52,816 bases of DNA from a virus, in IMG/VR virus record IMGVR_UViG_3300046517_000763, positions 1 through 52,816 of that record, one strand, 5' to 3'. The first letter of the stretch is position 1. Every line of letters begins with the position of its first letter. This document shows positions 6,099 through 52,816 of this stretch, one piece after another. The position numbers were made by a program, and so were the translations under genes. Under the pieces are notes generated by a model. It searched no databases. It was not told the DNA's origin and saw only the letters and a program-made list of their open reading frames with translations.

Positions 6099-6458
6099 TT
6101 AGACGTCGGCGCCAAGGAAGCTTTGAAGCGCGGCGTAATTGCGTTCGATTGTGTCGCGGTGTGCGCCCACGGCGGCTTCACGCATGAAGGCTGGTAGCGA
6201 GGGGTGATCGATCCACGACATCGGCGCTTCCTCCAGACCGTGACACATTTGGGACAAGGCGTGCGGCGTAAGCCCTGCGGACTTCGCCAGATCGGCCCGT
6301 GTCTGTTCGGTATCGATCAGGTGCTTCGCGACGGCCTTGCCGAAATCGGTCAAAGGGCGCTTAACGCGCGGCGTTGCCGGCGCCTTCGCGGGCTTGTTCG
6401 GGTCAGCCTTGCGGCCGGGCTTCTTCTTGCCGTTGGCGGGGCTCGTGTCGGGTTCCAT
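6099..6458 (-). CDS. Helix-turn-helix regulator candidate
   Basis: 119 residues. Residues 1-35 are Lys/Pro/Ala-rich and probably disordered. Residues about 36-75 (LTDFGKAVAKHLIDTEQTRA, DLAKSAGLTPHALSQMCHG) fit a Cro/CI-type HTH, with the recognition helix near THPHALSQMCHG-like positions 63-74 as read here (LTPHALSQMCHG). A C-terminal helical part follows. It has its own promoter-like sequence (6469-6497) in one of the few real gaps of the early block, which supports a regulatory role: probable control of early or late transcription. Target sites are unknown; the iterons at 18 kb are one candidate. Confidence 0.65.
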   Translation of the reverse strand: MEPDTSPANGKKKPGRKADPNKPAKAPATPRVKRPLTDFGKAVAKHLIDTEQTRADLAKSAGLTPHALSQMCHGLEEAPMSWIDHPSLPAFMREAAVGAHRDTIERNYAALQSFLGADV

Positions 6459-15084: not shown

Positions 15085-15127
15085 AAAAGATCCCCCCGCC
15101 GAGCTTCGAGGGGCTCAAGGCGGGGGG
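15085..15127 (-). terminator. Intrinsic terminator after the primase operon
   Basis: CCCCCCGCC (15092-15100) pairs with GGCGGGGGG (15119-15127), with an inner GAG/CTC. On the minus strand the stem is followed by ATCTTTTCGG (15091-15082). It should end leftward transcripts of the primase and the 134-aa gene just before the new promoter starts. Confidence 0.65.
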
Positions 15128-15581: not shown

Positions 15582-17813
15582 TTACATATCCTGTGTGTCA
15601 TCGGGTTGCTTTTCTTCGAGCGGATTGGAATCCACGCCGCTCCACGTGATCTCGGTTTGCATATAGGCGTCGAAGGATTTGCGGCAAGCATCGAGGGGTG
15701 GAAGGCCAAAAAAGGAATCCTGGCGTTCGGGGATCGGCGTTCGCTCGCGGAAGTCAAGCGGAATTATGAACCGAACCTGTTTCGTCGGCACTGCGCCGCC
15801 AAGCATTTTCGCCAGCTCCGCGCCCCATGCGTTGCGGCTGACCCGCGAACGTGGATAATTGTCGCGGAAATTTGCCCATAACGCGGTCTTGCCGACCGTG
15901 AAAGGCCAATCGGCCTTGGCGTCGTCGGTCGCCCATTTCAAACTTTTGGGGAGAATGTCGCCGGCTTGCAAGATTTGGTGCCACCATTCCTGCGTCTCGT
16001 TGAAGTTCTGAATTTTCATTGCCTCATGTTCTTTGTCTTTTATGTTGGTACGGATCATGTCTTTCTCATAAGCGTAATTTTGCAGGAAGTGCAGCAACGC
16101 TTGCGGCCCCTGCGCTTTCATTTCCGCGAAGAACCTATCTTTCAAGGCTCCGTCCATTTTGCGGCCGCTCGCGTCGAATACGATGTAGCGTCGGTCAGTT
16201 CTGGCGATTGGCGCGGCTTGCGGGTCATTGGAAGTAAAGATGATTCTTGCGTAGCTGCGGGCTTGTTCGGGCATCCCGAATTTTTTCATCGCCATGAAAT
16301 AGCGATCTGTGATGAGCGAGCGCAAAACTGAGCGGTGTTTTTTCTCTGGCGCGTAAATCGCTTCTTCCGATTGGATCAGCAACATGTTTTTTAAATGGTC
16401 GTTGAATTTCCCCGTTATGTTTTCTTGGTCGGATATTGAGAGGAACGAGAAGCCTAGTATTTTCGCGAAATATTCCAGAAAGACCGATTTAACTGCGCCC
16501 TCGTCGGATACAAAGACGAGCGCTGTTCCCGGCTTATTCGAGGGGTCTTGTATGATGTCGGCGAACCACGCTAGCCCAAGTTTGTATTTCTCTTCGTTGC
16601 CGCCGCACAAAACAGTTTTGAAGACATCGCACCATGCGGAACAATCCCCCCCGATTGGCGCAACCGCCCATCCTTGCCATAGGTTTAATTCGGTGTCCGT
16701 CGATTCTTTGCCGGATGGGTCGAACGTCGTATTCTCAAACTCTTTTCGGTTTTGGCTTTTGAGCCATATCGAGGCTTTAGGTATTTCTTCATCGCCGATT
16801 GTCAGAAGATCGTTGCAGCGCCATTTCTTGAATTCGCCGACGGGCATGAATGTCAATTGGTTTTTGGTTTTCGCCGTGACGAAGACGCGGCCATCCATTC
16901 GGATGACGGAAAAGCTTTCGTTGTATGTTTCAACGATAGTATCGCCGAAGGCTCCGAACCATTCCAAGATTAAATCGATGATCTCTTTTTTGTCCCGCAG
17001 GTGCGCCTTGAGTTTTGTGGCGCCTGTGTTTTTCTTCCCGGCTTCTTTTCGTTTGTAAGTCGTGGCGACGGCTTTGCGCGTGCGCTCGGGGTCTTTGTCG
17101 CCGTGGAAGCTCATGACGGCTTCCATCATTTCGAGGGTTTCTTCTTCGCTCCAGCCGAGATTGCAGAACATGCCGGATATGTGCATGGCCGGCTGATCAC
17201 GGTCGCCTGGCTCCCAGGCGTAGCGCGCGAGCAGCGTGGCGGCGGCGATCTTCTTGACCGCGCGCAACAGGACGTCTTCGGTTGTTTCGGCGATGATGAG
17301 GGGGACGGCTGTCGTCTCCCATCGATAGGTCTCGCCGCTTGGGTGAATCGAGCCGGGCAGGATTGTGTGGTTTTCGGCACCGTCCCCGCGGAATTCCACG
17401 ATGGTTTTGCGTTCGGTCGCAATGAAGGGGTCTTTGAATTCCATGCGCTTCGCGGGGGACGAGGGGCAGATATAGAACCAATGGGAGCGCGGCGCCGATT
17501 TGCGGCCGAAAACGCAGTCGGTCTTCGGCAGGAAGATCTCGGCGAAGGGCAGGCCGTCGGGGTGGTCGATATCGACGTCGGTCGGGCCTTTGCGCGAGGG
17601 GCCGGTGAGCACGCCCGCGCCATAGTCGTTCTGCTCCCAGAAATCGGGGTTCGGCGAATTGTACTGTTTGTCTGTGTAATTAGCGTGCGTCGAGGCTACG
17701 GCCTTCGCGCGCACGATGACGGGCACGAGGGCGAATCCTTTGGCGCGCGCCCAGCGGACGCTTTCGAGAACGCCCGGGCTGGCCCCGTGAGGGGCTTGGG
17801 GGCTTCCGGCCAT
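15582..17813 (-). CDS. Primase-polymerase / SF3-type helicase fusion (replication initiator candidate)
   Basis: 743 residues. N-terminal archaeo-eukaryotic primase/PrimPol domain: DVDID at 79-83 (metal-binding acidic pair), RSHWFY at 109-114, and GSIHPSGETYRW near 155-165. C-terminal part matches the DUF5906/D5-like primase-helicase group: NMLLIQSEEAIYAPEKKHRS (Walker B region, about 476), LRSLITDRYFMAMKKFGMPE, and ARIIFTSND (sensor). The Walker A site reads VSDEGAVKS (about 436-443): Lys-Ser are kept but the glycine spacing is degenerate. It makes primers and opens the fork for the family A polymerase. First gene of the leftward block, next to the iteron array, as initiators often are. The ATG at 17813 lacks a clear ribosome site and itself overlaps a GGTAG copy. 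Confidence 0.88.
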   Translation of the reverse strand: MAGSPQAPHGASPGVLESVRWARAKGFALVPVIVRAKAVASTHANYTDKQYNSPNPDFWEQNDYGAGVLTGPSRKGPTDVDIDHPDGLPFAEIFLPKTDCVFGRKSAPRSHWFYICPSSPAKRMEFKDPFIATERKTIVEFRGDGAENHTILPGSIHPSGETYRWETTAVPLIIAETTEDVLLRAVKKIAAATLLARYAWEPGDRDQPAMHISGMFCNLGWSEEETLEMMEAVMSFHGDKDPERTRKAVATTYKRKEAGKKNTGATKLKAHLRDKKEIIDLILEWFGAFGDTIVETYNESFSVIRMDGRVFVTAKTKNQLTFMPVGEFKKWRCNDLLTIGDEEIPKASIWLKSQNRKEFENTTFDPSGKESTDTELNLWQGWAVAPIGGDCSAWCDVFKTVLCGGNEEKYKLGLAWFADIIQDPSNKPGTALVFVSDEGAVKSVFLEYFAKILGFSFLSISDQENITGKFNDHLKNMLLIQSEEAIYAPEKKHRSVLRSLITDRYFMAMKKFGMPEQARSYARIIFTSNDPQAAPIARTDRRYIVFDASGRKMDGALKDRFFAEMKAQGPQALLHFLQNYAYEKDMIRTNIKDKEHEAMKIQNFNETQEWWHQILQAGDILPKSLKWATDDAKADWPFTVGKTALWANFRDNYPRSRVSRNAWGAELAKMLGGAVPTKQVRFIIPLDFRERTPIPERQDSFFGLPPLDACRKSFDAYMQTEITWSGVDSNPLEEKQPDDTQDM

Positions 17814-18393
17814 GGTAGGCGGCCGGCGCTAGGCGCAGGGACGCCAGCGGGCTCGGTAGAGGCGGGAAGGTAGCGGAGCGGGGAGCTGTTCCATGGCGTC
17901 GGGGCCTTCATGTTTTTGAGGAACCTTGTGCGATGAGTAGAGCGCTTCGGACAGGTAGCCGCAAGAGAAAAACGGCGCTTGACAAGGGGATATGGTCGGG
18001 TGAAGGGTTGGGAACGGGGCCTAAGCCCTTGATATCTGGCTACCTTTCCATCGTAAGGTAGCCGCTAAGGTAGCCAGAAATTCTCTTGTAGAATCAAGAG
18101 GATGCTACCTTGTCTACCTTTTCTACCTTGAAAAAAAAATCGCTTAATACGCAAGCCCGTAAATACGTGCATTACGCGCAACAATGTTTCACGTACCAAT
18201 TACCCTCCATATAGCAAATTATATAAGGTAGATATGGTAGCCAAGGTAGTATCATATTGAATCTAAAAATGAATTTCTGGCTACCCTCGGAATACGGGGG
18301 TTGCCATAGGTAGCCACAACTTATGGGGGCAGAAATAATTCGCAAAAATCGTGTGGCTTGCCCCCGCCTCGAAGAACCTGTAAATTCGGTCGA
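17814..18393. other. Iteron-bearing intergenic region: candidate replication origin and divergent control region
   Basis: 580 bases without a gene. The motif (A)AGGTAGCC or its complement occurs at 17867-17874, 17953-17960, 18038-18046(-), 18055-18063, 18067-18075, 18104-18111(-), 18113-18120(-), 18122-18129(-), 18225-18232, 18234-18242, 18243-18250, 18279-18287(-) and 18308-18315; further GGTAG cores are at 17855 and 17814. The pair 18038/18055 is a perfect 9+9 inverted repeat, and 18036-18046 with 18067-18077 extends to 11 bases. AT-rich stretches lie among them (A9 at 18131-18139; 18205-18226). Iterons next to the initiator gene are the classic origin layout; an operator array controlling the two divergent blocks is the alternative or an additional role. 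Confidence 0.75.
18218..18244 (-). promoter_or_regulatory. Possible leftward promoter inside the iteron array
   Basis: On the minus strand TTGGCT (18244-18239), a 15-base spacer and a perfect TATAAT (18223-18218). The spacer and -35 box overlap three iterons (18225-18250), so an iteron-binding protein would block it. It points toward the primase gene. The spacing is short, so this is tentative. Confidence 0.35.
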
Positions 18394-18915
18394 ATGAGCG
18401 AACTTGCGCGCAAAGTGGGCAGGCCAACAATTTACGACCCGGAGTACCATCCGGCGCTTGTCCATGATTACGCGCTATTGGGTTACACTGAGGAGCGAAT
18501 TGCCGGTTGCCTCGACATTGCGTGGTCAACGCTTAAGGATTGGAAAGAAATCCACGAGGAATTTTCAGCTTCATTAAAAGCGGGCAAGGAGATTGCAAAT
18601 ACGAAAGTCGCGAAAAGTTTGTTCGCAAATGCTGTTGGTCAAACGGTGTTGTTGAATAAGACATCCGTCACGAAAGACGGCGATATTATTCATTACACCG
18701 AGGAGCTTTACATCCCGCCGCAAACGACGGCCCAGATCTTCTTTCTGAAGAATAAAGAAAAAGAACTTTGGAAAGATCGCCACGACATCACGACCCCGCC
18801 AAACGAACCATTCCAAACGCAAGCTCTCCCTGCATTCGACACGTCGAAACTCAATCCTGAGCAGCTCGCCCAATTGGCTGTGATCATGGAAGCGGCCGGG
18901 GTCAAGGATGAATGA
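18394..18915 (+). CDS. terS: Terminase small subunit
   Basis: 173 residues. The N-terminal HTH (RKVGRPTIYDPEYHP, then YTEERIAGCLDIAWSTLKDW) binds the packaging site in the phage DNA, and a central helical segment (LKAGKEIANTKVAKSLFANA) fits oligomerisation. The C-terminus (SKLNPEQLAQLAVIMEAAG) resembles the large-subunit contact region. The ATG at 18394 is chosen; a TTG 36 bases upstream is possible, but no good ribosome site is visible for either. It precedes the large subunit with an ATGA overlap. First gene of the rightward late block, so the late promoter must lie in the iteron region. Confidence 0.85.
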   Translation: MSELARKVGRPTIYDPEYHPALVHDYALLGYTEERIAGCLDIAWSTLKDWKEIHEEFSASLKAGKEIANTKVAKSLFANAVGQTVLLNKTSVTKDGDIIHYTEELYIPPQTTAQIFFLKNKEKELWKDRHDITTPPNEPFQTQALPAFDTSKLNPEQLAQLAVIMEAAGVKDE

Positions 18916-20357
18916 ACGCCTTCACGCAACTAGGGCCGCAGCATCTTCGCGCAGTCAGGAAGCGCCAGGCGGAGTTGTCGCTTTACGAGTTTGTGAAGCA
19001 GGCGTGGCCGATTGTCGAAGGCGATAACCCATTCGTCGATAGTTGGCACGTCAAAGCGATTTGTGATCATCTGCAATCGCTGGCCAAGTTTGAAATCCCG
19101 CATTTAGGAATCAATGTTCCGCCTCGCGCGCTGAAGTCTTTGCTTTGCGCCGTGATGTTCCCGGCATGGGTATGGACATTGTGGCCCGAAGCCAAGTTTA
19201 TTTTTGCTTCGTATGCGGACAATCTTGCCAAACGCGATCAGGAAAAGACGCGCAGGCTTTGGGAATCGCCGTGGTATCAAACTCGGTGGCCAACCAATCT
19301 TATAATTTCGCGCCAAGACAAAATAGAAAACGCGCGCGGTGGCTATCGCATCAAGACATCGGTCGGCGGGCAAGCGACAGGCGAAGGTGGGCATTTCGTC
19401 GTGTGCGACGATCCGCTTTCTGTAAGCGATGGCACGTTCTCCGAAGTGAAGCGCCTTGAAGCTATCGATTGGTGGAACGAGACGATGGCCAATCGCTACG
19501 TCGATCCCGATAAGTTCCGTAGGCTGATCATCATGCAGCGTATGCACGACAACGACCTTTCGGGATTTTTGCAGCGGGAGCGCAAGGACAAATATATTTG
19601 GCTGATCTTGCCAGCGGAGTTTGAGCCGGATAGGCGTTGCGTGACGCCTATTTTCACGGACCCGCGCGAGATTGAGGGCGAGCCCATATCCCCTCGTTAC
19701 TCCCCGGGCTTCTTGCGCGCGCAGAAGATTGATCTTGGCGAATACGCTTACGCCGGCCAAATGCAGCAATCTCCCGTGCCGCGCGGCAAGATGGTCTTTC
19801 AGGTCGATCTCATTCAGCGCATCGCGAGCATTCCGAATCGATTGATGCGCACCATTCGCTATTGGGACAAGGCCGGCACGGAAGGCGGCGGCGCATACAC
19901 CGCTGGTGTGAAGATGGGGCAGCTCCCCGATGGGCGCTTCATCATCCTCGACGTGAAGCGCGGGCAATGGAGCTGGGGCAATCGCGAAATGCACATAAAG
20001 GCCGCTGCGGTCAATGACGGCTACGGCGTCGAGATTTGGGTCGAGCAAGAGCCCGGCTCTGGCGGCAAGGAGTCGGCCGAATCCACGATCCGCAACCTCG
20101 CTGGCTTCATGGTGTACGCCGATCCGGTCGGTGCGTCAGACGGCAACAAAGAACGCCGCGCCGCGCCGCTTGGCGTGCAGGTCGAGAACGGCAACGTGTT
20201 GTTGCTCGACACGGGGCAGGATTGGGTGACACCGTTCCTTGACGAGTTGCGCATGTTCCCTGTTGGGCGCTACAAGGATCAGGTTGACGCCGCTGCGGGG
20301 GCGTTTAACAGGCTGACAGACAACACGCTCGACTGGAACAAACTTCTTACGATGTGA
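18912..20357 (+). CDS. terL: Terminase large subunit (packaging ATPase/nuclease)
   Basis: 481 residues. ATPase: Walker A-like NVPPRALKS (68-76), SYADNLAKRD (100-109), and Walker B HFVVCDDPLS (161-170). Nuclease: RYWDKAGTEGG (first catalytic Asp near 319), WVEQEPGSGGKES near 378, and a C-terminal FLDELRMFP..KDQVDAAAGAF with the last acidic residue. The order and spacing are those of headful or cos-type terminases of tailed phages; I cannot tell which packaging mode from this alone, but the circular assembly favours headful packaging. Confidence 0.95.
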   Translation: MNAFTQLGPQHLRAVRKRQAELSLYEFVKQAWPIVEGDNPFVDSWHVKAICDHLQSLAKFEIPHLGINVPPRALKSLLCAVMFPAWVWTLWPEAKFIFASYADNLAKRDQEKTRRLWESPWYQTRWPTNLIISRQDKIENARGGYRIKTSVGGQATGEGGHFVVCDDPLSVSDGTFSEVKRLEAIDWWNETMANRYVDPDKFRRLIIMQRMHDNDLSGFLQRERKDKYIWLILPAEFEPDRRCVTPIFTDPREIEGEPISPRYSPGFLRAQKIDLGEYAYAGQMQQSPVPRGKMVFQVDLIQRIASIPNRLMRTIRYWDKAGTEGGGAYTAGVKMGQLPDGRFIILDVKRGQWSWGNREMHIKAAAVNDGYGVEIWVEQEPGSGGKESAESTIRNLAGFMVYADPVGASDGNKERRAAPLGVQVENGNVLLLDTGQDWVTPFLDELRMFPVGRYKDQVDAAAGAFNRLTDNTLDWNKLLTM

Positions 20358-23578: not shown

Positions 23579-24223
23579 ATGACCGCGAAATACCAAGGCA
23601 CGCCTGTCGTCGTCTATAACGAAGACGGAACACCCGCCACACTTGGTGGCATTGTCGCGGGTGATATTGAAATCGGCGCCGTCGAGATTAAGGACGGCAC
23701 GACCGACAATCGCGCGGCGGTGCTCAATACAAACCCCCTTGTTGCGGCGTCAGATTATGCGCTTGTAACCCGCGTCGTAGGGTTGCTAGCGACGCTTGGC
23801 GAAGTTCAGGCAAGCCCAACAGCAAACACACTCCTTGACCGGCTCAAGACCCTCGCTACCTCACTTGCTAATTTGCCCCCTTACATCCCCGCAGCGATCA
23901 ACACTACAATCGCGAACGCCGCGAGCCTTTCGGATGCGCAGGAAATCGACGGGCGTTTGGCCGGTATCGTTATGCCCGCGACGTGGACACTCGCGGCGAT
24001 CACATTTCAAGGTAGCCTCGACGGTTCAAACTTTTTCAACATTTACGACGGCGATATCGAGCGCGCTATTTCTTCGAGCCAGGCGACGGCGAGCAAATGG
24101 CTCGCGCTTGACCCTGCCGATTGGAAGGGCGTGAAGTTTTTGAAGTGCCGCTCGGGAACGTCCGCGACGCCCGTCAATCAGGGGCAACAAAGCATCCTCA
24201 CACTCGTGAATGGCGGATACTGA
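23579..24223 (+). CDS. Structural protein candidate, head region (214 aa)
   Basis: Begins MTAKYQGTPVVVYNEDGTPA; low in charge, Ala/Thr/Asn-rich and beta-rich (PATWTLAAITFQGSLDGSNF, KFLKCRSGTSATPVNQGQQS), typical for virion surface proteins. AGGA 5 bases before the ATG decides this start over a TTG 18 bases upstream. Probably a head decoration or fibre protein together with the next gene; not recognised by family. Confidence 0.65.
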   Translation: MTAKYQGTPVVVYNEDGTPATLGGIVAGDIEIGAVEIKDGTTDNRAAVLNTNPLVAASDYALVTRVVGLLATLGEVQASPTANTLLDRLKTLATSLANLPPYIPAAINTTIANAASLSDAQEIDGRLAGIVMPATWTLAAITFQGSLDGSNFFNIYDGDIERAISSSQATASKWLALDPADWKGVKFLKCRSGTSATPVNQGQQSILTLVNGGY

Positions 24224-31974: not shown

Positions 31975-32322
31975 GTGGCTTCGCCATTCGTTCAATTCCA
32001 CAAGCCGATTGACGTTCTGCGCAAGACGGCCGGCGCTTACGTTGACGGTGTGTGGGTCGAGGGCGAAGCACAAATCGTCGGTATCATGGGCAGCCTTCAG
32101 CCTTTGCGTCCGACCGATTTGCAACTCGTTCCCGAGGGGCGCCGCGACTCCGCAAAGTTTCGTCTGTACACGGACCAAAAGCTTGTGACGACGAAAGAGG
32201 GCAGCCAAAACCCCGATATTGTCTCTATAGACGATAGCGATTTCGAGATTATCGGCGAGGCGATCTGGCAGAACGGCGTCATCCCTCACAATATCTACAT
32301 TCTCGGGCGGATGCAGGAATGA
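31975..32322 (+). CDS. Head closure / stopper-like protein
   Basis: 115 residues, beta-rich, with GTG start at 31975. IVGIMGSLQPLRPTDLQLVP and DFEIIGEAIWQNGVIPHNIY are typical of the small beta-barrel closure proteins between connector and tail terminator in this gene order. Not certain as a family call; position is the main support. ATGA overlap with the next gene. Confidence 0.75.
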   Translation: MASPFVQFHKPIDVLRKTAGAYVDGVWVEGEAQIVGIMGSLQPLRPTDLQLVPEGRRDSAKFRLYTDQKLVTTKEGSQNPDIVSIDDSDFEIIGEAIWQNGVIPHNIYILGRMQE

Positions 32323-38728: not shown

Positions 38729-39354
38729 CGACGCTAACCGAATTGCTCCACACTCATTTCGATCATCGCATGTTCTCGCTTAATTTCTGCTGCCCCGGCT
38801 TGATCGTTGATTACGATTTCGCCACCAAAAAGGCGACAGTGCAGCCCGCGCTACGATGGACTTACGCGAATGGCGCCGTTGACGATCCGCCTTTGATCTC
38901 TGGCGTCCCCGTGCAGTGCCCCCGCTCGGGTGGGGCAGAGTTTTCGTTCCCCGTGATCAAAGGCGACGCGGTGCTGCTCATCTTCACGGATAGGTCAATC
39001 GAGGAATATTTGGTTCAAGGCGGGCTGCGCACGCCAGGCGACCCCCGCTCGCACGACCTTAACGACGCTATTGCCCTACATGGCGTGCCCTACCCCTTCA
39101 ACGCCAAATCCCTTGCGGAGAATAACGACGACGTTCTGCTGATCTACGAGCAAAAGAAACTCCGCATGAAGAAGGGCGCGGGCTGGGAAATCGAGGGCGA
39201 CGTGAAGGGCACAGGGGACTGGTCCATCAAGGGCGACCTTGCCGTGGATGGCAACATAACTGCGACAGGGGATGTTAAGGCTGGTACAGTGAGCCTCAAG
39301 AACCACGTCCACACCGATCCGCAAGGCGGCAACACGGGAGCGCCGACACCGTAA
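38725..39354 (+). CDS. Baseplate spike protein (gpV / gp138-like)
   Basis: 209 residues. The N-terminal OB-fold region (CCPGLIVDYDFATKKATVQP, GVPVQCPRSGGAEFSFPVIK, GDAVLLIFTDRSIEEYLVQG) is Gp138/gpV-like. A repeating beta-helix end (KGTGDWSIKGDLAVDGNITA TGDVKAG in two runs) closes with NHVHTDPQGG; the His-x-His resembles the iron-binding tip of phage spikes (known for P2 gpV). It pierces the outer membrane. Confidence 0.88.
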   Translation: MTTLTELLHTHFDHRMFSLNFCCPGLIVDYDFATKKATVQPALRWTYANGAVDDPPLISGVPVQCPRSGGAEFSFPVIKGDAVLLIFTDRSIEEYLVQGGLRTPGDPRSHDLNDAIALHGVPYPFNAKSLAENNDDVLLIYEQKKLRMKKGAGWEIEGDVKGTGDWSIKGDLAVDGNITATGDVKAGTVSLKNHVHTDPQGGNTGAPTP

Positions 39355-46843: not shown

Positions 46844-47302
46844 TTAGGGGAGCCAGGACCAATTAATCCGGCGTTTTATGAGCCCAATCGTGGCGCGATT
46901 GACAGCGTAATCGGCGGCTATCTGCGTTTCGCTTCGAGAGTCAGCGCGTATTTTTAGGACGTCGTTGGCATTCAATTTGCGCGACGCTACCCCGCCACCG
47001 TTTCTAGCGCCTTTTGCTGCGCGTTTTTTATCCTTCATATCTTTAGAGTTTTCGGCGTTTGTGCCAAGCCAAAGATGATCCGGATTTACACAAGCAGGCA
47101 CATCACAACGATGCAGCACGCACAGGCCATCGGGAATTTCTCCGCGATAAAGGCGCCAGGATTCTCTGTGGGCTCTTACTACTGGCCGACATCCAAACGC
47201 GCCATAGCCACTGTCTTTGAAAAGCGCAGCGGTCCAAATCCAACACCCCGAATTAGGTTCGGGGATATATTTTTCTTCGAATAATTCTTGTCTCGATTTC
47301 AT
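46844..47302 (-). CDS. HNH endonuclease (homing type), copy 3
   Basis: 152 residues from ATG 47302, which overlaps the fibre stop as ATGA. PNSGCWIWTAALFKDSGYGA, HRESWRLYRGEIPDGLCVLH RCDVPACVNPDHLWLGTNAE (two runs) carry the full HNH core, closest to copy 1; the C-terminus KLNANDVLKIRADSRSETQI then YAVNRATIGLIKRRINW is the HTH. AT-richer than the fibre gene. Last gene of the leftward block, so it would be expressed weakly unless it has its own signal. Confidence 0.9.
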   Translation of the reverse strand: MKSRQELFEEKYIPEPNSGCWIWTAALFKDSGYGAFGCRPVVRAHRESWRLYRGEIPDGLCVLHRCDVPACVNPDHLWLGTNAENSKDMKDKKRAAKGARNGGGVASRKLNANDVLKIRADSRSETQIAADYAVNRATIGLIKRRINWSWLP

Positions 47303-49422
47303 GCGCAATTCGCCAATAGGTAAGCGTCAGCAGTTTTGAAAGCCGTTACGACGTCAGCTTGGCCGCCTGTGCCGTCCATCAACGATGGATCGCTGCCTGA
47401 TTTGTTAAAGGCGTGGCTTCCGGTGCCCGAACTTACTGTAACAGCAAACAAACACGGTCGCAATTCTGGCATTCCGTGGGCTGCTGCACTAATTGCAACA
47501 GGGTAATCTGAATTCACTTGATCCAGCCCATCGGGGTTCGACGGCGACCATTCCGAAAGAATGATCGGCCAGCCGCCAATGCTGTCGGAATATGGGAGCA
47601 CCGTGTTTTGAATCGTCGTCGCCCATCCCGACGTTAGAGCCGCCGCGCGGCCGGGATAACGATGCACGTCGATAATGATCGGCCCGCCGTCGCTCGGGAT
47701 TTGGAAGCCCGTATTTACGAGCTGATCGTAACCGTCCCATCCCTGCGGGTTTATCACCATGATCGCGTTGGCGCCCATGAAGCTGCGCCCGATATTGTAA
47801 AGCGCGAGCTGCACGGGATTGATGGCGGCATGGCCGGGCGTTCCGCCCCATTCATCGACGGACTGGAACGCGACGCGCGTCATATCCCACTTGTCCGCGG
47901 CCGCTCGGATCTGCGCCTGGGTGTAGAAATTCGTCACGGCCTGCTTGAGCCATGTCAATTCGTTGCCCGAGAGCGACGAAGGATCGATAACCTGCGTCGC
48001 TCCGACCTGCACATACATCCCCGCCGCGAGCGCTTTGGTCACGGCTTGCAACATCGGATCGTAACGCGAAGGCGGTGGGATCGACGCTTGCCCTGTGCCG
48101 GCGCCGTCGAGATTGAAATTGGGCTTCCAGTAGTAGAACATCCGCACGCCCGTCACGCCTTGCGTTTTGTACACGGCGTAATTCGGGTTCAACGTCCAAG
48201 GCGTATTGGCTTCGAGGTTGATCCTGACGCGCTGATTGCAAACCCAAGCCCTCGCCAAATCCTTCGCCGCAACGCCGGTTGACGTGCGCCAGCGCGAGAG
48301 CGTCCCTGCGCCGGGTGGCGGGGTCAAGCTTCCACCCGTGCCGCCTCCTCCGCCTGAAACGACATAGCCCGGCGGGTTCACATTGGCGCCCATGTCGGTA
48401 TAAGTGCCTGCCTTGGTGCTGCCATTGATCGAATCGAGGCGGAACCAATGGAAAGCGCCGGAGCCGAGGAAATTGGGGTTGCGCTGATAGAATAGATGCC
48501 CGGTGTAATAGCCCTGATCGACCGCAGCCGTCGGCGTGTCGGTCACACCGTCGATCACGACTTGGCCCCCCGCCGAAATGGAGACGGTATCGGTGAGGTT
48601 CTGCAAGCGAAGCGTGGCGCCGCCTGGGGTGATCGTCGTTGGGTCCGGCGATTCGGTGACTGGCGAGCGAGGGTCGCCGGCCGCATTGGCGACGAGCGTG
48701 GTGCCGTTATCGATCCACCAGGCGCCCGCGAAGTCCTTGAAGTAGAGCGTGCCCGCCGTGACGCCCGGAGGCTTGTAATAGAGCCCTAGGACGGCCGTCG
48801 TGACCGTGCCGTAGTTCGACCCGGCCTTCTTGGGCTGGCCACCCGCTGGAAGGCTCCCGGCGATGGTCCAGGCGGCTGCGGCGTGATCGGTGATTGTGCC
48901 CGAGCTGGGCGTGATCGTCGTGCCGTTGACGCTCTCTGTGGCGCCGCCGGCCTGCTTCAGCGTGTTGATGTCCTGCTGCGCCTGGGTGAGCCCCGATTGC
49001 AGGCTCGTGATGTTGTTCTGGTTTGCAGTCTGATTGCCTTGGAGCGTGCTTATGCTGGCCAGTGCTCCGGCGACGGCAAGCGCGTTTGTGGACACCGAGG
49101 ACTGTAGCGCCTGGATGGTGCTTTGCATTGTGGTAATGGTTGAGGTGTCGGTCGATGCGCCCGGAGGGCCGGGCTGGCCTGGAGGGCCAATAGGGCCTAC
49201 CGAGCCGGGAATACCTTGAGGCCCGATCTGCCCGCCACCCGCGCCGCCCGTCGATTGGATCGCGTCGATCTGGGTTTGGATTGAATCGAAATACTCGACT
49301 TCGGCGTCGAAGACAGCGGTAAGGGCGTTTGAGAGCGCCACACTGTCATTGGTGATGCCCAGACGCGCGAGCGCATCCATCTTGAGCGCGACAAGGGCTT
49401 TAAGCTCGGCAGACGTCGGCAT
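47299..49422 (-). CDS. Large tail fibre/spike with collagen-like repeat and glycoside-hydrolase-like C-terminus
   Basis: 707 residues. Helical N-terminus (1-55); collagen-like Gly-X-Y stretch (GPQGIPGSVGPIGPPGQPG, about 68-86) for trimerisation; coiled coil (about 90-155); beta-rich middle with Gly/Pro linkers (about 355-372); C-terminal about 320 residues with a (beta/alpha)8 glycosidase look (GVTGVRMFYYWKPNF, VAFQSVDEWGGTPG, MVINPQGWDGY, IIIDVHRYPG, PIILSEWSPSNPDG), the two Glu-containing strand ends being candidate acid/base and nucleophile. Probably cleaves a host polysaccharide. Unusual in that it is on the strand opposite to all other virion genes. Its ribosome site (AAGGAGC) lies inside a hairpin (49427-49447). 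Confidence 0.8.
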   Translation of the reverse strand: MPTSAELKALVALKMDALARLGITNDSVALSNALTAVFDAEVEYFDSIQTQIDAIQSTGGAGGGQIGPQGIPGSVGPIGPPGQPGPPGASTDTSTITTMQSTIQALQSSVSTNALAVAGALASISTLQGNQTANQNNITSLQSGLTQAQQDINTLKQAGGATESVNGTTITPSSGTITDHAAAAWTIAGSLPAGGQPKKAGSNYGTVTTAVLGLYYKPPGVTAGTLYFKDFAGAWWIDNGTTLVANAAGDPRSPVTESPDPTTITPGGATLRLQNLTDTVSISAGGQVVIDGVTDTPTAAVDQGYYTGHLFYQRNPNFLGSGAFHWFRLDSINGSTKAGTYTDMGANVNPPGYVVSGGGGGTGGSLTPPPGAGTLSRWRTSTGVAAKDLARAWVCNQRVRINLEANTPWTLNPNYAVYKTQGVTGVRMFYYWKPNFNLDGAGTGQASIPPPSRYDPMLQAVTKALAAGMYVQVGATQVIDPSSLSGNELTWLKQAVTNFYTQAQIRAAADKWDMTRVAFQSVDEWGGTPGHAAINPVQLALYNIGRSFMGANAIMVINPQGWDGYDQLVNTGFQIPSDGGPIIIDVHRYPGRAAALTSGWATTIQNTVLPYSDSIGGWPIILSEWSPSNPDGLDQVNSDYPVAISAAAHGMPELRPCLFAVTVSSGTGSHAFNKSGSDPSLMDGTGGQADVVTAFKTADAYLLANCA

Positions 49423-52611: not shown

Positions 52612-52816
52612 TCATTTGCCGTATGTCGCCTCGGACCAATTCGTGCCTTCCTTGGCGTCAACCTCGACCGGCACGCGTTTTATGTGGATCATGTCCGAGG
52701 GGCCGAAGCTTTTCATGACTCGCTTAGACTCTTCGTACTGCGCGCGGTCCCCCTCGAAGAACTGAAAGCCGAAGGCGTCATGGATGTTCGTCAGAAGGTT
52801 GATCTTGTCGCCCTGC
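52612..52816 (-). CDS. polA: DNA polymerase I-type polymerase, 3' part
   Basis: The C-terminal part of the gene described at 1-1818. The first 126 bases repeat bases 5-130; the new coding part ends IHIKRVPVEVDAKEGTNWSE then TYGK and TGA at 52612-52614, a usual end for family A polymerases. The codon at 52690-52688 is ATG (Met) where the left copy has ATA (Ile). Confidence 0.95.
   Translation of the reverse strand, partial: QGDKINLLTNIHDAFGFQFFEGDRAQYEESKRVMKSFGPSDMIHIKRVPVEVDAKEGTNWSEATYGK
52687..52816. repeat. Terminal repeat (contig end overlap), right copy
   Basis: Bases 52691-52816 equal 5-130; see the left copy. Joining the ends gives one uninterrupted DNA polymerase frame, which confirms circularity of the assembly. 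Confidence 0.95.

Follow-up and report, generated by a model that had tools for sequence, protein, structure and literature searches.

What is the function of the dense array of short repeats that separates the two divergent gene blocks of this viral genome? The window, that is, the whole stretch of DNA analysed (52,816 nucleotides; IMG/VR record IMGVR_UViG_3300046517_000763), has a 130-bp overlap between its ends (1-130 and 52687-52816; 99.2% identity), indicating a complete genome that is circular or permuted. It carries a Mu-like head module and a contractile tail, with structural genes for portal, head, sheath, tape measure, baseplate, and fibre, as well as a family A DNA polymerase gene that spans the record junction (43-999 and 52630-52806, minus strand). 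A tyrosine integrase was looked for in the window and not found. A 707-aa protein encoded at 47299-49422 on the minus strand matched a family of minor head proteins only weakly (phrog_19577, E 2.7e-05). The leftward block has at its upstream end the gene for a PrimPol-DUF5906 helicase (15582-17813, minus strand), and the rightward block opens with the genes for the terminase small subunit (terS, 18394-18915, plus strand; phrog_309) and large subunit (terL, 18912-20357, plus strand; phrog_38). The sole match in a DNA similarity search of the region was a 66-bp stretch of terL; no relative was found at the DNA level, and a literature search with the string GGTAGCC returned only noise.

The whole array (17814-18313) contains 15 GGTAG cores, 10 on the plus and 5 on the minus strand, compared with 46 across the entire window. 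Nine of the 11 AAGGTAG copies in the window fall within it, the others being single copies at 24009 and 50994, and so do seven of the nine copies of GGTAGCC. The densest 450 bp held 13 GGTAG and 9 AAGGTAG, whereas the maxima in 300 order-2 simulations of the window were 5 and 2, respectively, confirming that the clustering is real and far beyond chance. The preliminary description had counted about 13 copies of the core here; its statement that the copies are mostly AAGGTAGCC was too strong, as the full AAGGTAGCC occurs just three times in the array. The perfect inverted pair of AAGGTAGCC that it described is present exactly as claimed (18038-18046, minus strand, and 18055-18063, plus strand) and is followed by a further plus-strand copy at 18067-18075, so that this auxiliary part covers 18038-18075. 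Other auxiliary GGTAGCC sites lie at 18279-18285 (minus strand) and 18309-18315 (plus strand). Weaker outlying GGTAG sites on the plus strand, at 17814, 17855, 17869 (AAGGTAGC), and 17954 (AGGTAGCC), all within 17814-17960, are putative members of the functional array. The spacing of the copies around the triplet core is not fixed.

This core consists of two tandem triplets that face each other. The left triplet (18104-18130, minus strand), which reads CTACCTTGT CTACCTTTT CTACCTTGA when given as the plus strand, has CTACC cores at 18105, 18114, and 18123. The right triplet (18225-18251, plus strand; AAGGTAGAT ATGGTAGCC AAGGTAGTA) is inverted relative to the left one, with GGTAG cores at 18227, 18236, and 18245. 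The three inverted copies (18105-18129) and three direct copies (18225-18249) had been noted correctly, and both have a 9-bp period; their arrangement as a dyad around a 95-bp spacer had been missed. The spacer (18130-18224) is only 37% GC, compared with 57% for the window, carries alternating purine-pyrimidine runs (ACGTGCAT and ACGCGCA), and presumably functions as a DNA-unwinding (melting) element. Using a scan that scores geometry and self-similarity only and is blind to the letters, we found no second dyad anywhere in the window at periods of 6-15; this one scored 52.7 out of 56 against a maximum of 42.0 in 60 simulated windows. The GC-skew minimum, predicted earlier to coincide with the array, was located at 15100, approximately 3 kb away. 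The AT-skew minimum, at 17917, does lie within the array but follows the change of gene direction there. Neither skew was counted for or against an origin.

Given its position in a divergent intergenic region, the array could be an operator, at which the helicase or an HTH protein (e.g., the one encoded at 6099) switches the leftward and rightward blocks while replication starts elsewhere. A weak promoter-like pair over the right triplet is consistent with such a role, and both uses could coexist. This pair, TTGGCT-15-TATAAT (18218-18244, minus strand; TTGGCT at 18244-18239 and TATAAT at 18223-18218), points toward the helicase gene and is present as described before, but its spacer is 15 bp and a promoter scan gave it no score. 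Beyond the two single AAGGTAG copies, the window contains no second cluster or matching site, and the 6099 protein has HTH matches below threshold only. Moreover, the facing-triplet layout tracks helicase genes rather than promoters, as detailed below, and usually lies 3' of them, where a divergent promoter is not expected. An operator alone is therefore improbable, and the earlier view that it would fit the array equally well is not supported.

Of the two binders proposed for the array, the adjacent helicase is far better supported than the 6099 protein. It is an NrS-1-like SF3 protein of 743 aa with Pfam domains PF09250 and PF19263. Foldseek comparison of its AlphaFold model recovered the NrS-1 CTR (6k9c) at 5e-16 and SaPI5 PriRep1 (7ola and 7pds, the latter a dsDNA complex) at 1e-8. 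Residues from about 638 to 718 form a beta-helix-helix-beta-beta-helix unit in the model. When this C-terminal unit was searched alone by fold, the top matches were nearly all winged-helix DNA-binding proteins, every one with E above 0.1, and we predict a winged-helix-like fold for it. The PrimPol and SF3 helicase parts of a pRN1-type initiator are thus present, together with a predicted C-terminal winged helix whose fold matches are non-significant. We presume that this protein, a self-loading helicase, is the initiator that acts on the array. Searches of IMG/VR and GTDB genomes found no relative of the helicase above 34% identity, and a single-sequence search of viral contigs found no close ones.

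More distant relatives were collected with a helicase profile, which retrieved 160 loci from IMG/VR and GTDB genomes. Keeping only representatives under 70% identity left 113, of which the 106 with enough sequence 3' of the helicase gene were used. An unbiased 7-mer cluster scan of the 106 loci found 58 short-repeat arrays. More than half of them (30; p 3e-20) lay in the slot from -150 to +650 bp of the helicase stop, which accounts for just 6.7% of the sequence. Copies in both orientations were present in 29 of the 30. Unlike in the window, the slot 5' of the helicase held no array in any of the 106 relatives. The motif itself varied by lineage (ACTAGGACA, CCTGGACA, GGTTGGACC, ACTGGTGACA, AAGGTCGGTA, and others), and its correlation with helicase sequence was weak (Mantel r 0.24, 17/2000 permutations). 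When the geometry scan was applied to the 106 3' regions and the window, 33 matches were obtained at period 9, one of them in the window and 32 in the regions of the relatives, with 0-1 matches at each of periods 7, 8, and 10-14. The scan found no dyad in control regions, and 74 of the 106 helicase loci lacked a 3' dyad. After phase alignment, the dyad units averaged TGTCCtAGn. Their spacers had a mean length of 79.5 bp (47-104), were AT-richer than their own loci (p 6e-4), and showed longer purine-pyrimidine alternation (p 2.5e-5). In GC-rich hosts (L240:8200-8300, L258:9130-9200, L265, L301, and L317), the spacer is often a long alternating purine-pyrimidine run of up to 49 nt (e.g., GCGCGCACGCACACACGCGCG), which may replace the AT-rich melting region there.

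Among complete phages, clear dyads were present in RDJL Phi 1, VP5, CN2, M6, and Mcat5, one in each and not always adjacent to the helicase gene. The dyad is at 32279 in Roseobacter phage RDJL Phi 1 and at 39114 in Vibrio phage VP5. About half of the complete genomes scanned had no dyad, including several complete phages with this helicase. We dropped the idea that the array always adjoins the DUF5906 gene, as the dyad can sit elsewhere in complete lytic phages. In Bordetella phage CN2 it occupies the gap before terS, as in the window, whereas in VP5 it precedes terS by about 1.2 kb, with the record junction in between. These positions suggest that full phages may have a second preferred location for the dyad, where the replication block meets the packaging block. 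The window is atypical for its class in that the dyad is 5' of the helicase gene and terS adjoins it.

The start of terS, 81 bp past the last GGTAG, together with the dyad positions in CN2 and VP5, would also be compatible with a pac or cosB site, at which the terS product would recognise the DNA for packaging. The dyad class does not follow the type of terminase, however. At the loci with a 3' dyad, the next large gene encodes terminases of differing families (phrog_15, phrog_2, and phrog_51) or no terminase at all, and 80 neighbourhoods of related TerL genes (0.71 Mb) contained no period-9 dyad. Furthermore, the layout serves as an origin in the PICIs and in pRN1, which lacks a terminase. 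We consider a packaging site very unlikely, and less likely than an overlap with operator use, with the adjacency of terS and the positions in CN2 and VP5 leaving some room for such a role. Other short-repeat arrays were observed beside the packaging genes of phages with related TerL (L055:424-750, L056, and L057; L063:2000-2170; L034:340-620), namely TAATCGTTCG with a 13-bp period, CGTACCGTAC, and TTACTGTCGC. They are perhaps origins of other initiator types.

The association with helicases was also recovered in reverse, starting from the DNA pattern. We searched IMG/VR with the inverted GGTAG dyad of 9-bp period, using no protein information, and obtained 40 stretches. A VapE- or DUF5906-type helicase was encoded within 2 kb in 22 of them, and in 20 of the 40 the dyad lay no more than 400 bp 3' of the helicase gene. 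The earlier statement that other phages are not known to have such a repeat was therefore wrong. A caution is that the VapE profile behind these counts derives from members of the 9-bp set; Pfam had identified these independently. With an 8-bp period, 13 of 17 inverted stretches (L390-L406) were just 3' of VapE-type helicase genes, and with a 10-bp period 3 of 11 were near a VapE/DUF5906-type helicase. The everted order (GGTAG left and CTACC right, 70-100 bp apart; L407-L469) gave such a helicase nearby in only 3 of 63 stretches. It was meant as a chance control, yet its stretches outnumbered the inverted ones (63 versus 40), so raw scan counts were not used and only the association with helicases was considered. 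Judged by this association, it is inward-facing copies with an 8-9-bp period that track the helicase. Outside the DUF5906 group, 9 bp is not the sole period allowed, which suggests that the repeat period differs between helicase subfamilies. A triple AAGGTAG pattern was also searched in IMG/VR and gave 12 stretches, of which several were clearly repetitive protein-coding DNA; two (L085 and L091) were followed.

Comparison with known origins places the window in the same context. Every PICI origin is reported to comprise an AT-rich region between two sets of iterons and to lie 3' of the initiator gene, and one such origin was shown to work in E. coli (PMC6092414). SaPI Rep and Cch2 bind their iterons via the C-terminal domain (PMC7581432). 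Two features of the PICI/SaPI type were found in the window, namely two iteron sets around an AT-rich middle and a cognate self-loading helicase-primase next to them (PF09250 and PF19263, with the match to SaPI5 PriRep1). The window differs in three respects: it is not a satellite but a tailed phage that is complete and encodes its own heads and tails, its array is 5' of the initiator gene (3' in 32 of the 106 relatives), and its initiator is a PrimPol-DUF5906 fusion. The layout with two iteron sets has been described as confined to PICIs (PMC6092414), and the relatives found here suggest that this claim does not hold.

The Sulfolobus plasmid pRN1, like the window, combines an archaeo-eukaryotic PrimPol fused to an SF3 helicase with inverted repeats of 9-bp period around a spacer. 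Its 3' element is essential for replication and was described as a stem-loop (PMC4234260). Re-read here, the element is TGTCCATAG-TGTCCAACT, 62 bp, and an inverted copy, with two 9-bp units per arm that share a TGTCC core with most of the phage dyads found in this study. It differs from the window in having two units per arm instead of three, in lying 3' of the gene, and in having been labelled a stem-loop rather than iterons. A stem-loop was likewise proposed as an origin element of BIP-1 (PMC4234260), and its counterpart in BPP-1 is (TTGCCTCGT)x2 around 64 bp. Streptococcus phage Sfi21 has an annotated origin region (302 bp, 3' of a P4-type primase) that also comprises inverted tandem pairs around an AT-rich spacer, of 71 bp, but with an 8-bp period, two units per arm, and another motif. 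The alpha protein of phage P4 resembles the presumed initiator of the window in combining a primase, an SF3 helicase, and a C-terminal origin-binding domain, and P4 too has short repeats in both orientations, with two copies 9 bp apart and two inverted copies 18 bp apart in crr. Its repeat, the type I iteron, is GGTGAACA, with spacings of 10-11 bp in ori, as opposed to the (AA)GGTAG core of the window, and P4 gave no dyad in the geometry scan. The primase of alpha is of the bacterial (Toprim) type (PMC4234260), in contrast to the PF09250 Prim-Pol of the window.

The published models for pRN1 and BIP-1 raise the question of whether a hairpin or cruciform of the two arms is the functional element, with the repeats being incidental. 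The arms of the window can pair (single-strand DNA fold of -18.6 kcal/mol, z -3.7), those of pRN1 pair better (z -8.4), and the intact element is required for pRN1 replication (PMC4234260). Across 26 dyads, however, the unit match was 18.46 of 21 in hairpin order and 18.52 in other orders (p 0.61), and the linkers (2.31 versus 2.27 of 4) likewise showed no excess in hairpin order. This absence of a hairpin-order constraint implies that copies of a site, not a stem, are conserved. The comparison favours iteron sites over stems, and we regard an origin that depends on a stem-loop as highly improbable.

Taken together, the array is very probably the replication origin of the phage, bound by its own PrimPol-helicase. 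The origin reading of the preliminary description is well supported by comparison, since helicase relatives and known origins show the same dyad layout. Demonstrated here are the presence of a single such dyad in the genome and the association of its layout with the helicase family. How the protein would bind, load as rings, melt the DNA, and prime we infer from the relatives named above, and autoregulation is likewise a proposal. The C-terminal domain of the helicase would bind both triplets, and one helicase ring would assemble on each, so that the two rings face each other and could melt the 95-bp spacer. The PrimPol domain would then prime within the spacer, leading to bidirectional synthesis by the family A DNA polymerase of the phage. 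The auxiliary copies would raise the local concentration of the initiator, and through them the helicase may possibly repress its own leftward promoter. An added operator role of this kind is plausible because the weak promoter-like pair overlaps the right triplet.

More generally, there may be a sequence-independent origin code, shared by bacterial phages, prophages, satellites, and archaeal plasmids. Their self-loading helicase initiators, whether DUF5906, VapE-like, or pRN1 in kind, would all act on sets of two or three sites that repeat every 8-9 bp and face each other across a spacer of roughly 50-105 bp. The letters would differ between lineages, with the geometry set by assembly of the helicase ring, and the published stem-loop origins would be instances of it; we consider this generalization about evenly balanced between holding and failing. 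We found no earlier description, among the openly licensed papers searched, of a PICI-like layout in complete PrimPol phages or of its unification with pRN1 and BIP-1. Few origins have been mapped in tailed phages that encode PrimPol-helicases, and repeat letters are uninformative for this purpose since they are lineage-specific. The geometry (9-bp period, facing triplets, and a spacer of about 80 bp) predicts an origin without knowledge of the motif and, when starting from DNA alone, predicts the type of helicase. Both the claim that the layout is restricted to PICIs (PMC6092414) and the model of stem-loop recognition by PrimPol-SF3 initiators (PMC4234260) thereby become directly testable, and candidate origins are supplied for dozens of prophages.
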